Positions 111-8,543 of a stretch of 64,000 nucleotides of DNA are shown piece by piece; the stretch's first letter is position 1, and each line of letters begins with the position of its first letter. The stretch is from Candidatus Binatia bacterium (lineage in GTDB: Bacteria > Vulcanimicrobiota > Vulcanimicrobiia > Vulcanimicrobiales > Vulcanimicrobiaceae): assembly GCA_035541935.1 (NCBI GenBank), contig DATKMJ010000069.1, forward strand, positions 1-64,000, given 5' to 3'. Under the pieces are notes generated by a model. The model worked only from the letters and a program-made list of their open reading frames with translations, was not told where the DNA came from and ran no database searches. The position numbers and the translations under genes are program-made.

Positions 111-196
111 GGGGATGCCCTCCTCTTGCGTCACTCTCTCATACGAGCCTGATAGGCAACGTAGAGGAGCCTGGGAGTCCCCTGAATTTTTGGCGG

Positions 197-1747
197 TTAC
201 GAGGGCGTGAAGAGGTTCTTTCCGGTCATCCGCTCCGGAATCGGCAGGCCGAGGATCGAGAGCAGCGTCGGGGCGACGTCGCCCAGCTTTCCCCCGCTCG
301 CAAGGCTTCCGCGCAAGCCGTTTGCGACGAGCGCGAACGGCACGCGGTTCGTCGTGTGGGCGGTGAGCGGGTTTCCGTCGGCGTCGATCTTCTCTTCAGC
401 GTTGCCGTGGTCGGCGGTGATCGCGAGGAGCGCGTTCGCGCGCAGCGCCGCGTCCGCGAGCCTGCCGAGGCACGCGTCGATCGTCTCGATCGCCTCGATC
501 GTCGGCTCCCACTTACCCGTGTGCCCGACCATGTCGGCGTTCGCGTAATTCATCACGATCGCGTCGTACGTGCCGCCCTCGATCGCCCGCACGGCCGCGT
601 CGGTTATCTCCGGCGCCCGCATCGCGGGTGCGAGATCGTAGGTCGGCACCGAGCGATCCGACGGAATCAGCACGCGGTCCTCGCCGTCGAATTGCTCTTC
701 GCGCCCGCCGTTGAAGAAGTAGGTGACGTGCGCGTACTTCTCCGTCTCCGCGAGGCGAAGCTGGCGCAGCCCTTCGCGCGCGAGAATTTCGCCGAACGTG
801 TCGTACTGCGGGCGAGGCCCGAAGAGCACCGGGTTCGTGTACGCCTCGTCGTATTTCGTCATCGTCGCGAAGAGCGGGTTTGCGTAGCGCTTCGATTCGA
901 AGACGCCGAAGCCGTCGTCGAAATAGATCGTCGTTCCGGCGTCGAAGGCGGTCGTGAGCTGGCGCGCGCGGTCCGGCCGGAAGTTGAAGAAGATGAAGGC
1001 GTCGCCGTCCTCGATCGGACGCGCGGCGCCGACGATGGTCGGCAGGACGAACTCGTCGTCCTCGCCGCGCGCGTACGCGTCGCGCACCGCGGTCGCCGCG
1101 TCGGCAGCGCGATGCTCGGCGTTGCCGTTCGCGAGTAGATCGTAGGCACGCTGCGTGCGCTCCCAGCGCCGGTCGCGATCCATCGCGTAGAAGCGCCCCG
1201 TGACGCTCGCGATCGCCCCGCTGCGCCCGGCATCGCGGAGTCGCTCTTCCAGCCGCTCGACGAACCCGAGCGCGGAGCGCGGCGGCGTGTCGCGCCCGTC
1301 GAGAAAGCAGTGGATCGCGATCGGCGCGCCTGCGGCGACCGCCGCGTCGATCAGCGCGAAGAGATGGAGGATCGAGCTGTGCACGCAGCCGTCCGAGAGC
1401 AAACCCATGAGATGGAGCGTCCCGCCCGTCTTGGCAACGTGCGCCATCGCGCGCGCCAGCGTCTCGTTCTTGGCGAACTCTCCGTCGGCGATCGCGGCGT
1501 CGATCACCGTCACGCCCTGGGGAACGACCCGTCCGCTGCCGAGGTTCATGTGGCCGACCTCGCTATTCCCCATCACGCCCTTCGGCAAGCCGACGGCTTC
1601 GCCCGATGCGGCGAGCGTCGCGTGCGGATAGCGCTGCAGCAGGCCGTCCCAATGCGGCGTGCGCGCGGCCTCGATCGCGTTACCGCGCGTCTCGTCGCGG
1701 CAGCCCCATCCGTCGAGCACCGCGAGGACGATCGGACGGTAGCGCAT
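197..1747 (-). CDS. gpmI: 2,3-bisphosphoglycerate-independent phosphoglycerate mutase
   Basis: Interconverts 3- and 2-phosphoglycerate in glycolysis; cytosolic, normally Mn-dependent. The 516-aa length is standard for the family. The N-terminal metal-binding motif LDGWG is at residues 11-15. The catalytic serine lies in GNSEVGHMNLGSGR (Ser62, same numbering as the Bacillus enzyme). The C-terminal ITADHGNAEE motif supplies further metal ligands of this alkaline-phosphatase-fold enzyme. The ATG start sits 2 bp after the tpiA stop, so the gene is the last clear member of the gap-pgk-tpiA-gpmI operon. No enolase gene is visible here. Confidence 0.97.
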   Translation of the reverse strand: MRYRPIVLAVLDGWGCRDETRGNAIEAARTPHWDGLLQRYPHATLAASGEAVGLPKGVMGNSEVGHMNLGSGRVVPQGVTVIDAAIADGEFAKNETLARAMAHVAKTGGTLHLMGLLSDGCVHSSILHLFALIDAAVAAGAPIAIHCFLDGRDTPPRSALGFVERLEERLRDAGRSGAIASVTGRFYAMDRDRRWERTQRAYDLLANGNAEHRAADAATAVRDAYARGEDDEFVLPTIVGAARPIEDGDAFIFFNFRPDRARQLTTAFDAGTTIYFDDGFGVFESKRYANPLFATMTKYDEAYTNPVLFGPRPQYDTFGEILAREGLRQLRLAETEKYAHVTYFFNGGREEQFDGEDRVLIPSDRSVPTYDLAPAMRAPEITDAAVRAIEGGTYDAIVMNYANADMVGHTGKWEPTIEAIETIDACLGRLADAALRANALLAITADHGNAEEKIDADGNPLTAHTTNRVPFALVANGLRGSLASGGKLGDVAPTLLSILGLPIPERMTGKNLFTPS

Positions 1748-1749
1748 GC

Positions 1750-2508
1750 TTACGCGAGCGCGGCGTTGGCGACGAGCGCCGCGAAGCCGTCGGGATCGAG
1801 CGAGGCGCCGCCGACGAGCCCGCCGTTGACGTTGGGCTGCGCCATGTAGGACGCGACGTTCCCCGCGTTCATGCTCCCGCCGTAGAGAATCGGGGTCGCG
1901 TCGAGACCGTCGAGGACGCCGCGAATCGCGGCCATCACGCGATCCGCCTCCGCCGGGTCGCAGTTCTCTCCGGTGCCGATCGCCCAGATCGGCTCGTATG
2001 CGATCGCGACGCGGCGCAGCTCGTCGCTCCGAACGCCCGCGAACGCCGCGCGAATCTGCGCGACGACGCGCTCGTCGGTGCGGCCGGCTTTGCGTTGCTC
2101 GAGCGTCTCTCCGACCGCGACGATCGGCGTCAGGCCTTGCTCGAGCGCGGTGCGCACCTTGCTGTTCACGCTTGCGTCGGTCTCGCCGCAGTGAGCGCGC
2201 CGCTCGGAGTGGCCGAGGATGACGTGCGTCACGCCGAATTCGATCAGCATCGGCGCGCTAACCTCGCCAGTGAACGCTCCCTGCAGCTCCCAATGCATCG
2301 TCTGTGCGCCGAGGCGCACGCGCGTGCCGCGGAGCATCACCTCTGCCGCAGGCAGCGACGGGAACGGCGGAGCGATCACGATCTCGATCTCGGCCGGAAG
2401 CGCGGGCGCTCTCACGAGGAAGCGTTCGAGATAGGCGACGGTATCCGCCGCCGTCTTGTGCATCTTCCAGTTGCCCGCCACGATCGTGCGGGGCCGCTTA
2501 TCGCTCAA
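1750..2508 (-). CDS. tpiA: triosephosphate isomerase
   Basis: Interconverts dihydroxyacetone phosphate and glyceraldehyde 3-phosphate. The protein is 252 aa, normal for the family. All active-site elements are present: Lys15 in GNWKMH, electrophile His100 in ILGHSERR, catalytic Glu172 in AYEPIWAIGTG, and the phosphate-binding LYGGSMNAGN near the C-terminus. The ATG start overlaps the end of pgk by 11 bp, and the stop is followed 2 bp later by gpmI, so translation is probably coupled along the operon. Confidence 0.97.
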   Translation of the reverse strand: MSDKRPRTIVAGNWKMHKTAADTVAYLERFLVRAPALPAEIEIVIAPPFPSLPAAEVMLRGTRVRLGAQTMHWELQGAFTGEVSAPMLIEFGVTHVILGHSERRAHCGETDASVNSKVRTALEQGLTPIVAVGETLEQRKAGRTDERVVAQIRAAFAGVRSDELRRVAIAYEPIWAIGTGENCDPAEADRVMAAIRGVLDGLDATPILYGGSMNAGNVASYMAQPNVNGGLVGGASLDPDGFAALVANAALA

Positions 2509-3679
2509 GCGCGGCGACCCCCGGCAGCGTCTTGCCTTCCAAGAACTCGAGCGTCGCGCCGCCGCCGGTCGAGACGAAGGTCGTCTTTGCGGCGAATCCG
2601 AGCAGATGCGCCGCGGCCGCCGCGTCTCCGCCGCCGACGACGCTCACCGCGCCGGCCGCGGTTGCCGCAGCGATCGCCTCGCCGACGACCTGCGTTCCGC
2701 GCCGGTACGCTTCGCGCTCGTAGACGCCCATCGGTCCGTTGAAGACAATCGTCTTTGCCCCTTCGATCGTGGCGGCGTACGCGGCCGCCGTCTGGGGACC
2801 GATATCGAGGATCATCTCGTCGCCGACCTCGCCGATCGAGACGACGCGGGCGGCGCTCTCGGCGTCGAACGAAGGTGCGACGACCGCATCGGTCGGAAGC
2901 GCGAGCGCGACGCCGCGCTCTTTCGTCAACGCGAGCACGCGGCGCGCCGGCTCGAGATCGTCGTCGCGGAGCGAGCGTCCGACGTTGACACCCGACGCCG
3001 CGAGAAACGTGTTCGCCATTCCGCCGCCGACGCAGAAGCCGTCGACGAGCTCGCTCAGCCGTTCGAGCAGCGCGATCTTATCTTTGACCTTCGCTCCGCC
3101 GATCGCGCAGACGAACGGCTTTGCCGGATGCTCGGTGAGGCGCGCGAGCGCGCTCAGCTCGGCTTCCATGAGAAATCCCGCAGCGCTCGGCAAGAGATGC
3201 GCGAGCCCTTCGGTCGAGGCGTGCGCGCGGTGCGCGGTCGCAAAGGCGTCGTTCACGTAGAGATCGCCGAGCGCGGCGAGACGACGCGCGAATGCGGGAT
3301 CGTTGCGCTCCTCTTCGGGATGGAATCGCACGTTTTCGAGCAGCAGCAGGTCGCCGTCGCGCATCGCGTTCGCGGCGCGCTCCGCGACGGCGCCGACGCA
3401 GTCGTCCGCGAATGCGACGGGGCGCTGCAGCCGCTCCGCAAGCGCTTGCGCGATGGGGCGGAGCGAGAGCGCCGGATCGGGCTTGCCGTCGGGGCGCCCG
3501 AGGTGCGAGAGCACGATCGTGCGCGCCCCGTTGTCGTGGAGCCAGCGCAGCGTCGGAAGCGCCGCGTCGATTCGCGCGTAGTCTAAAATCTTGCCGTCGC
3601 CGAGCGGTACGTTGAGGTCCTCGCGGACGAGCACCCGTTTGCCTCGAACGTCGAGGTCCGTCAGCCGTCGAAAGGGCAC
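2498..3679 (-). CDS. pgk: phosphoglycerate kinase
   Basis: Transfers phosphate from 1,3-bisphosphoglycerate to ADP in glycolysis. The start chosen is GTG at 3679, giving 393 aa, the usual PGK length. The open frame extends 29 codons further upstream, but that extension overlaps the end of gap and lacks family similarity. Visible motifs are VREDLNVPL near the N-terminus, SHLGRP (substrate-binding basic patch), GGAKVKDK in the hinge and nucleotide-domain region, and VVGGGDAAAA with VSTGGGATLEFLEGK at the C-terminus. Position 5 of the GGGD(S/T) motif is Ala where Ser or Thr is common. It lies 17 bp after gap and overlaps tpiA by 11 bp. Confidence 0.95.
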   Translation of the reverse strand: MPFRRLTDLDVRGKRVLVREDLNVPLGDGKILDYARIDAALPTLRWLHDNGARTIVLSHLGRPDGKPDPALSLRPIAQALAERLQRPVAFADDCVGAVAERAANAMRDGDLLLLENVRFHPEEERNDPAFARRLAALGDLYVNDAFATAHRAHASTEGLAHLLPSAAGFLMEAELSALARLTEHPAKPFVCAIGGAKVKDKIALLERLSELVDGFCVGGGMANTFLAASGVNVGRSLRDDDLEPARRVLALTKERGVALALPTDAVVAPSFDAESAARVVSIGEVGDEMILDIGPQTAAAYAATIEGAKTIVFNGPMGVYEREAYRRGTQVVGEAIAAATAAGAVSVVGGGDAAAAAHLLGFAAKTTFVSTGGGATLEFLEGKTLPGVAALER

Positions 3680-6485: not shown

Positions 6486-7871
6486 ATGGCACAGGCTCAA
6501 CCGCGTCGCCACGGAGTGAACATATTCGAGGAGGGGAAGCCGATGTGGCAGATCCTCCTCGTCTTTCTCGTGCCCTTGATGCTCAGCAACGTCCTGCAAT
6601 CGGCGTCGCAGACGATGGCGAGCATCTGGATCGGGCGGTTGATCTCGACCCAGGCGCTCGGCGCCGTCTCGGCGGTCTTCCCCGTGATATTCCTGTTGTT
6701 CTCGTTCGTCTTCGGCGTCTCGAGCGGCAGCAGCGTGCTGATCGGTCAAGCCTTCGGCGCGCGCGATCACCACAAGGTGAAGAAGATCGCCGGCACCGTG
6801 CTCGGCGCCGCGCTCTACCTCGGCATCGTCGTCGCCGTCGTCGGATCGCTCTGCTCCGCGACGATGCTCGGCTGGCTCGGAACGCCGCACGACATCGTCG
6901 GACAGGCCGACGCCTACGCGCGCGTGATCTTCCTCACGATGCCGATATTCTTCGTCTACTTCGTCTACGCGACGATCCTGCGCGGCACGGGCGACTCGAC
7001 GACGCCTTTCTACGCGCTGATCGTCTCGGCCGTGCTCGCGATCGCGATCACGCCGTTCTTCATCCTCGGGATCTTCGGCTTGCCCAAGCTCGGCGTCGTC
7101 AGCGCCGCCGTGGCCGGCGGCATCGCCAACTTGGCGGCGCTCGCGTGGCTCGTCTACTATCTCGACCGGCACGACCATCCGCTGAAGTTCGACCGCGAGA
7201 CGCTGCGCGATATGCTGCCGGACTGGAAGATCCTCGGATCCGTCGTCCGCATCGGGCTGCCGACCGGGCTGCAAGTGATCGTCGTCTCGCTCGCCGAGCT
7301 CGCGGTCATCTCGTTCGTCAATCGCTTCGGCTCGAGCGCGACGGCCGCGTACGGCGCCGTCAATCAAGTCGTGGGCTACGTCCAATTCCCCGCGATCTCG
7401 ATCGGCATCGCCGCCTCAATCTTCGGCGCGCAGTGCATCGGCGCGCGCCGCGAGGACAAGCTCGGCAGCGTGATTCGCTCGGCGGTCGGTCTCAACTACG
7501 CCGTCGGAGCGCTCATCATCGGCTCGTGCTACATCTTCGCCTGGGTGATCCTCGGATGGTTCATCACCGACCGGCACACCCTGCAGATCGCGCACGAACT
7601 GCTCATGATCACGCTCTGGAGCTACGCCGTCTTCGGCAACTCCGCCGTGCTCAGCGGCCTCATGCGCGGCAGCGGCGACGTGATCGTGCCGACGGCAAAC
7701 GGCATCTTCGCCATCGGCGTCGAGGTCGTCGCCGCCTACCTGCTCATGCACCGCTTCGGATTGGACGGCGTCTGGATGGGCTACCCGATCGCGTTCTGCA
7801 CCGCGCTCACGCTGCAGTTCTGCTACTACGAATTCGTCTGGAAGAAAAAGACGCACGAACGCCTCGCGTAG
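6486..7871 (+). CDS. MATE-family multidrug/Na+ (or H+) antiporter
   Basis: A 461-aa polytopic protein with about 12 predicted transmembrane helices in two related halves, typical of MATE exporters (NorM/DinF superfamily). Characteristic stretches are LVPLMLSNVLQSASQTMAS in helix 1, GQAFGARDHHKVKKI after helix 2, RGTGDSTTPFYALI, and in the second half GAQCIGARREDKLGSV and LMRGSGDVIVPT. It probably exports toxic cations or drugs. An alternative start at 6543 (MWQILLVF) has a better ribosome-binding site (GGAGGGG, 6 nt spacing) and begins exactly at helix 1; the given ATG at 6486 adds 19 residues. It is cotranscribed with padR and ends before a plus-strand terminator. Confidence 0.92.
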   Translation: MAQAQPRRHGVNIFEEGKPMWQILLVFLVPLMLSNVLQSASQTMASIWIGRLISTQALGAVSAVFPVIFLLFSFVFGVSSGSSVLIGQAFGARDHHKVKKIAGTVLGAALYLGIVVAVVGSLCSATMLGWLGTPHDIVGQADAYARVIFLTMPIFFVYFVYATILRGTGDSTTPFYALIVSAVLAIAITPFFILGIFGLPKLGVVSAAVAGGIANLAALAWLVYYLDRHDHPLKFDRETLRDMLPDWKILGSVVRIGLPTGLQVIVVSLAELAVISFVNRFGSSATAAYGAVNQVVGYVQFPAISIGIAASIFGAQCIGARREDKLGSVIRSAVGLNYAVGALIIGSCYIFAWVILGWFITDRHTLQIAHELLMITLWSYAVFGNSAVLSGLMRGSGDVIVPTANGIFAIGVEVVAAYLLMHRFGLDGVWMGYPIAFCTALTLQFCYYEFVWKKKTHERLA

Positions 7872-7890
7872 TCGCCGCGTTAGGCGCATC

Positions 7891-8152
7891 GCGCGCGGTG
7901 TGGGCTGCCTCGAAGACGCTCGTCGCGCCACCTCCTGTGGCGCTCCTGCTGCGCCACTTTTTCGGCAGAACGAAGTTTTGAAGATCACATCCTGTGATGG
8001 CCGAAAAAGTTGGAGCCTTCTCGGCAGCCCACACCCCGCGCGCTGATAACGGACGGCGGCGAGGCTCGACGTAATGCCGAGGAGGCCGCGCAGCAGGAGC
8101 GCAGCGGGATGCGGAGCGACGAGCGTTTCTGAGGCGTTACGTCGAGCCTCGC
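7891..8152. repeat. block of nested and tandem inverted repeats between convergent genes
   Basis: This region between the ends of the MATE gene and the kal-like gene has no convincing coding frame. Outer arms 7891-7909 and 8023-8043 pair over 19 bp with a 2-nt bulge. Inside them are an 11-bp pair (7956-7966 with 8000-8010) and a perfect 6-bp hairpin ATCACA-TCC-TGTGAT (7984-7998). A second element follows: arms 8059-8078 and 8133-8152 match at 19 of 20 positions, the odd one being a G-U pair in RNA, and enclose a 54-nt loop. The loop sequence CGCAGCAGGAGCGC (8089-8102) is complementary to 7942-7954 in the first element. It could be a dispersed intergenic repeat, a non-autonomous element or a structured RNA. 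Confidence 0.6.
7937..7962 (+). terminator. intrinsic terminator of the padR-MATE operon
   Basis: The 7-bp stem GTGGCGC (7937-7943) and GCGCCAC (7951-7957) encloses a 7-nt loop and is followed directly by TTTTT (7958-7962). It lies 66 bp after the MATE stop codon and is embedded in the larger inverted-repeat block. Confidence 0.65.
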
Positions 8153-8162
8153 GCGACGAGAA

Positions 8163-8543
8163 CTAGTTGCGTTTCTTGTCTTTGGGCGTGACGCACGTGC
8201 CGGTCGCGCGGCAGACGACGATCGGCGGATCGAGCACGTCGGCGGCGCTGTCGTTCATCTCGGGACGCGCGGCGATAACCTTGCGCGCTTCGAACTCCAT
8301 GTGCCGCGACGTCTTGCCGACCTTGACGATGCGCCCCTCGGCTTCGACGTAATCGCCCGCGTAGGTGGGAGCGAGAAACCGGATCTCGGAGTAGGCCGCG
8401 AAGAGCCCTTCGTCGCCGTCGAGCCGGATCAGCAGTTCGGTCGCGACGTCGCCGAAGAGCGCGAGGATGCGCGCTCCGTCCACGAGTCCGCCGCCGTAAT
8501 GGCCGTCCTGCGAGCTCATCCGCACGCGCAGGATCGACGTCAT
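8163..8543 (-). CDS. kal: hotdog-fold 3-aminobutyryl-CoA / beta-alanyl-CoA ammonia-lyase family protein
   Basis: The 126-aa protein starts at ATG 8543, overlapping the mazG stop as ATGA. Its sequence closely follows the Kal/Acl family: [20 protein letters not shown], then [20 protein letters not shown], then [17 protein letters not shown], then [16 protein letters not shown], ending [15 protein letters not shown]. In lysine fermentation Kal removes ammonia from L-3-aminobutyryl-CoA to give crotonyl-CoA; Acl does the same for beta-alanyl-CoA. Assignment to this family is strong from remembered signatures. The exact substrate is inferred from kamDE about 36 kb away. It ends a mazG operon rather than a catabolic one. 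No upstream extension is likely because the coding space belongs to mazG. Confidence 0.8.

Follow-up and report, generated by a model that had tools for sequence, protein, structure and literature searches.

The window, by which we mean the whole 64,000-nucleotide stretch of DNA that was analysed, carries a MATE gene (6486-7871, plus strand; checked by Pfam), the stop codon of which is separated by a 291-nt intergenic block (7872-8162) from that of a kal-like gene on the minus strand (8163-8543), assigned by Pfam to the thioesterase superfamily. Two hairpin elements lie within this block. Element A (7887-8045), which is of the CTTTTTCGG-stem type, is closed by outer arms located in a palindrome search (left arm 7887-7915, right arm 8017-8045) that form an imperfect pair over 29 nt at 86%. 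It encloses a second stem (7956-8010), in which 7956-7966 pairs with 8000-8010 (11 nt, 100%) around a further hairpin (7984-7998). Element B (8059-8152) is closed by 20-nt arms (8059-8078 and 8133-8152) pairing at 95%, in which T8075 and G8136 form a G-U pair and the remaining 19 pairs are Watson-Crick. The strand on which folding is predicted to be favoured is the minus strand for A and the plus strand for B.

Each element contains a conserved unit, P2, located on the plus strand in A (7911-7953) and on the minus strand in B (8089-8131). P2 of element A includes a small hairpin with a variable stem (GCGCCAC/GTGGCGC, 7925-7943). A terminator-like stem-loop followed by TTTTT, 3' of the MATE gene (7937-7957, plus strand; a consensus match only), is a pairing alternative to this small hairpin, and a scan confined to the window found six terminator-like sites between 7800 and 8250, with 0.4 expected from shuffles. 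The original prediction, which placed two long palindromes in the gap, the first with smaller stems and a terminator inside it and the second with one G-U pair in its arms, agrees with this arrangement, and the complementarity that it described between the two is longer than it stated: because A and B hold P2 in opposite orientation, 7907-7972 matches 8070-8135 in inverted form over 66 nt at 76%.

The prediction that the gap contains an excess of structure also held, with fold z-scores against dinucleotide shuffles of -8.35 on the plus strand and -6.92 on the minus strand and none of 200 shuffles equally stable. Taken with the arm-pairing scores across copies given below, these z-scores rule out chance palindromes in a GC-rich gap. 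No Rfam family scored above threshold between 7500 and 8600 of the window.

A conserved centre and locus-specific stems

The block is not single copy. Partial copies were found by DNA search elsewhere in the same genome (contigs C15, C37, C18, C65 and C62) and in relatives, with matches at E ≤ 0.001 in 24 of 41 relatives and in 17 of the 18 genomes within the genus; one short match outside P2 (28 nt) came from a more distant family (G033). Alignment of 32 copies defines P2 as a conserved unit of ∼43 nt that consists of GACGCTCGTCGC, the small hairpin and GCTCCTGCTGC. Genome searches with a covariance model built from this alignment located P2 in 17 of 18 genus genomes, with at least 155 matches at E ≤ 0.01, of which at least 18 are in the genome of the window. 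A phylum-wide search, run with stricter filters than the genus search, found P2 at E ≤ 1e-4 in at least 43 of 148 genomes; among the phylum matches listed, 40 carriers belong to the same family and three to one genus of a sister family. A sequence-pattern search of genome contigs gave matches in Eremiobacterota/Vulcanimicrobiota MAGs only (five stretches). Viral contigs gave no match to the A-centre pattern, and phages and plasmids gave none to 7885-8160 of the window. Covariation in the small hairpin of P2 is moderate (69% of cells paired), its score of 0.077 being lower than the 0.094 of one slid control.

Of the genomes searched, many are incomplete drafts, and contig ends hold several of the copies. 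Copies within a few hundred bases of a contig end or beside runs of N include those at loci L023, L025, L183 and L190, as well as L194, L195, L207 and L209; these hairpins may be points at which assemblies break, so that the copies may be undercounted.

Most P2 units stand singly. Five pairs of neighbouring units were found within 900 nt of each other, four in opposite orientation (A and B of the window, L090, L021 and L184) and one in the same orientation (L199). The two copies at L199 (G007, contig C55; positions 1001 and 1320) have identical arms and their compared flanks match at 100% (411 nt each); this pair is a recent tandem duplication. A short dispersed sequence (TCATCCTGAGC...GTCGAAGG) adjoins some copies, as in the flanks of L018, L210 and L221.

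The loci fetched contained 101 distinct units, nine of which were dropped for short flanks, leaving 92 that were testable. In 81 of these, the outer arms pair with each other and score higher than 99% of a control set of 2275 mismatched left-right pairs (the median being 21, compared with 7.5 in the mismatched pairs); the structure is kept among relatives. The other 11 copies gave no arm score over threshold and were left out of the tallies of arm length, whole-element folding, strand bias by distance, one copy per site, gene context and direct repeats. Arm lengths range from 16 to 67 nt, with a median of 32 nt. Farther than ∼20 nt from P2, arms are unrelated in sequence from one copy to another, their identity of 0.24-0.27 being at chance level.

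End-like arms, AGGAACCTCTGATTAATCCG or AGGAGCCTGTCGGGTTACG, are common to L175, L178, L179, L180, L181, L164 and L151, which belong to the subclade of G009, G014 and G003; these shared arms may represent IS-like ends. At the empty sites L226 and L227, as well as 3' of rimM in L123, a small AGGAGCCTG-type palindrome stands alone.

A MITE was among the identities originally suggested for the block. Movement by a DDE transposase would fit the inverted repeats as such, the end-like arms common to several G003/G009/G014 copies and a slight excess of flanking direct repeats of 2-5 nt (13 of 81 copies compared with ∼7.5 expected, p 0.03), but those direct repeats have no common length, 68 of the 81 copies have no flanking direct repeat, even one as short as 2 nt, that could represent a target-site duplication, and terminal inverted repeats common to copies are missing outside that subset. 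With no consistent target duplication and with arms generally unshared between copies, a DDE MITE was rejected as the identity of the repeat; only a small subset fits it well, and we consider it very unlikely for the family.

Occupied sites, empty sites and neighbouring genes

Presence or absence of the repeat at one site varies between species. At the window site, a MazG neighbour is present in 17 of 18 genomes and P2 was found solely in the window's own locus, several of the loci ending before the gap or having other neighbours. Both MATE and kal are present in eight loci, in which the gap between the last aligned codons is 297 nt in the window, 15, 17, 17 and 31 nt in four relatives, and 458-823 nt, of different sequence, in the other three. 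The gaps of L067 (G005) and L068 (G013) hold ∼800 nt of other sequence, that of L067 including a 256-codon open frame which is DJ-1/PfpI-like by eye.

The junction between nuoD and nuoE was compared in 17 loci. P2 is present there in five genomes (G000, G001, G009, G013 and G014); in three others (L089 of G004, L085 of G005 and L087 of G007) the palindromic inserts look related by eye, give no P2 match and are perhaps a sister type of repeat. G003 and G016 have apparent remnants, and the other loci comprise five with overlapping genes, one with a 37-nt gap and one that is uninformative. On the 3' side of an EF-G-like gene ('t46'), P2 is present in five of 16 genomes, G000 among them, with one apparent remnant, and at the rimM site it is present in one of 15. 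The identities of nuoD, rimM, MATE, MazG and EF-G were checked by Pfam, and nuoE and nuoK were named by eye. Same-site copies in two to five species form 14 sets, some of them judged from one flank only.

Gene ends were taken from a home-made codon-usage gene finder and some may be mispredicted. Relative to the orientation of P2, 33 of the 81 copies lie between tandem co-directional genes, 23 between convergent genes, ten between tandem genes that both run against P2 and four between divergent genes, three of these four lying outside the family; the remaining copies are incomplete or inside a predicted gene. Where the left gene points towards the element (62 copies), it ends within 20 nt of the arm in 47 cases and the arm overlaps the gene by 6 nt or more in 20, which shows that the repeat prefers sites just 3' of stop codons. 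At L022 (G012), an A-type copy (1470-1636) lies inside an open reading frame (125-3107, 994 aa) and is read through in frame; this frame joins an amino-oxidase/desaturase-like part to a squalene-hopene-cyclase part (Pfam).

Strand bias of the stems

The mismatches in the outer arms are distributed unevenly between complementary classes. On the strand that carries P2, A.C outnumbers G.T (83 versus 26), C.C outnumbers G.G (28 versus 6) and C.T outnumbers A.G (38 versus 13), a bias that the mismatched-pair controls do not have (2237 versus 2607, 1504 versus 1628 and 2619 versus 2349, respectively). The prevailing A.C, C.C and C.T mismatches read as G.T, G.G and G.A on the opposite strand, and these are the mismatches that disturb a hairpin least. 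The excess of fold-tolerated mismatches there shows that the fold is favoured on the strand opposite to P2. Thinning to one copy per shared site, which retains 61 of the 81 copies, leaves A.C 59 versus G.T 15, with 33 elements biased in this direction, three in the other and 25 ties (p 2.3e-7); in the same 61 copies, the arms-only duplex is more stable on the strand opposite to P2 in 49, less stable in six and equal in six. Folding of the whole element is also better on that strand, with RNA parameters for all 81 copies and with DNA parameters for 77 of 81, counts that are non-independent because the centre is common to the copies. The bias declines outward (43:6, 22:7, 13:10 and 4:3 per successive 10 nt), and beyond 28 nt the thinned bias is not significant (11:6, p 0.33).

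These observations bear on a structured RNA, another of the identities originally suggested, or a 3'-UTR or terminator hairpin that would be kept for the sake of the upstream gene. The closeness of gene ends to the arm (47 of 62), the rarity of divergent gaps (four of 81), the very stable fold and the excess of terminator-like matches in the window gap all speak for such a role. Against it, the favoured fold is opposite to the upstream gene at 33 of 43 tandem sites, compared with ten in the same direction, and its strand stays the same when gene direction changes; P2 is missing at the same site in other species, and Rfam gave no match above threshold over the interval searched. Since this fold opposes the upstream gene and ignores gene direction, a structured mRNA is disfavoured, and we regard a structured RNA or terminator hairpin as unlikely. 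Selection on the mRNA strand was likewise rejected as the source of the bias, which points the same way (10 versus 1) at sites with both genes oriented against P2.

Change of the arms and relation to known systems

One account of the stems is that the element inversely duplicates its target at each insertion, the arms then being copies of the host flank. In the register chosen by the alignment, at least nine of the last 12 gene nucleotides are matched by the inverted partner at 11 of 50 testable sites, compared with 0.45% in the mismatched-pair null, and the shift across the 50 sites together is a modest one (4.9 versus 3.2 of 12 on average, p 0.0016). The clearest inverted copy of a gene end is that of rimM in G016 (TTATTGGATTAG, 12 of 12 nt), and the ends of nuoK- and nuoD-like genes are also inverted in stems (by eye). 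In 11 relatives that lack P2 and keep the adjacent rimM gene pair, 7-10 of 12 nt match at the best of 289 offsets; the 10 of 12 case, at the empty rimM site of G005, lies six bases past the stop with no P2 and is a chance match. The account is contradicted by the long arms of L048, L206, L221 and L185, for which no source was found at empty sites by eye and by short-word BLAST (seven of 12 prepared flanks searched; one informative empty site only for L221), and by the long arms at the nuoD-nuoE junction, which are likewise absent from empty sites (by eye). Inverted target duplication was rejected as a general rule since the empty sites of the youngest copies lack the arm sequence, and we hold it to be improbable. 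Error-prone copying at the birth of an element was also rejected, because the most perfect arms are error-free (39 of 39 in L221, 25 of 25 in L022 and 29 of 29 in L185).

Comparison of same-site copies suggests that the arms change in concert. In one same-site set from the sister family (L038, L039 and L043), three paired changes and a single unpaired one separate the arms of L039 from those of L043, compared with two changes in the centre of ∼100 nt (by eye). The concerted change would be incomplete because single-side differences occur between same-site copies, as in L197 and L195 (one paired and ∼3 unpaired arm differences). Such concerted change is a known effect of template switching from one arm to the other, as set out in the available parts of three reports (PMC6649704; PMC8604942; PMC7202029). 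It would explain growth into the neighbouring stop codon. The strand bias is not explained by template switching and would need a folding constraint on one strand.

We propose that each of the two elements of the window is a unit of a palindromic repeat family, dispersed and non-autonomous, that belongs to a single order of the Vulcanimicrobiota (Eremiobacterota) and would spread rarely, through some enzyme. What is kept may be the stability of the folded single strand, DNA being likelier than RNA in view of a bias that is independent of gene direction. Template switching between the arms (quasi-palindrome conversion), selection via G-T/G-U intermediates, or both would make the arms drift together, and the same templating could push the stem outward over the final codons of an adjacent gene. 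The family is thus probably a REP/BIME-like non-autonomous repeat without a RAYT, the stems of which change in a concerted way while a folding constraint acts on one specific strand; an effect on the 3' end of the upstream gene is possible. A more tentative and, to our minds, doubtful alternative is a mobile hairpin without fixed ends, in which the shape of the folded strand, the one opposite to P2, would be read by an enzyme or replication process that moves the centre, the stem being re-templated at each site and growing into the neighbouring stop codon.

Of the original interpretation, the suggestion of a REP/BIME-like element holds. The repeat is a dispersed, multicopy, mostly intergenic short palindrome, with two oppositely oriented units in the window and a location just 3' of stop codons. 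The transposase speaks against that exact label: Y1_Tnp (RAYT) was found in none of the 18 genus genomes and in four of 99 family genomes, many of which are incomplete, and 38 of the 40 carrying family genomes have no match, those in the other two (G055 and G118) all being partial. Mobilization by RAYT was rejected on these counts. Ordinary REP/BIME (REPIN-like) repeats spread by this Y1 transposase would share the small palindromes, the opposite-orientation pairs, the 3'-end location and the folding constraint on one strand, and REPs of the CGTC type apparently without a dedicated transposase have been published (PMC3733652), so that the absence of a transposase alone is not unique. According to the available part of the same source, REP stems are 5-13 bp, compared with arms of 16-67 nt here, and the CGTC REP consensus has AT at stem positions 1-2, a stem of 8-9 bp and a CCA tail. 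CGTC occurs in P2, the consensus differs by eye, and a short conserved stem with a GTAG or CGTC tag was not found, the arms being unshared in sequence. An ordinary RAYT-borne repeat therefore appears distinctly improbable.

Integron attC sites lie after a stop codon and have ends of the form RYYYAAC/GTTRRRY. They resemble the repeat in outline, in that, as far as the available parts of two reports extend, a single folded strand matters and there is little sequence conservation (PMC2727003; PMC6393395), and in having a variable stem and a position 3' of a gene. Weak partial matches to the integron-integrase model occur in 90 of 99 family genomes and equally in all 14 control genomes, but none of the 99 passes the integrase cut-off, a threshold that no control genome passed either and that hence has no positive control. 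Only one of 81 copies has attC-like ends, there are no R boxes, the sites are scattered and single, and the conserved part is central. attC sites were rejected on the integrase result and the scarcity of attC-like ends, and this identity is extremely unlikely.

Palindromes of nematomorph mitochondria offer a second parallel: in the available part of the report, their arms change in concert by template switching and lie within coding sequence, and no mobile conserved centre is described (PMC6649704); the repeat described here has a strand bias in addition. Titles and opening parts of abstracts in the open-licence literature yielded no description of a repeat with a conserved centre and free stems.

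Palindromic repeats are usually recognized by their conserved sequence; here the stem sequence is free, pairing is held and the fold favours one of the strands, and the lineage mostly gives no match to the usual transposase. The 81 copies with arms and 14 same-site sets constitute a natural data set for telling selection on the folded strand apart from conversion by template switching and for investigating how palindromes that have no RAYT are moved. As far as the available descriptions extend, REP, BIME and REPIN elements are the closest in form and place, being dispersed small palindromes that form opposite-orientation pairs 3' of genes, while in the present family the centre is conserved, not the whole. 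What sets the family apart from REP/BIME is the free stems, locus-specific and self-pairing, around this conserved centre.
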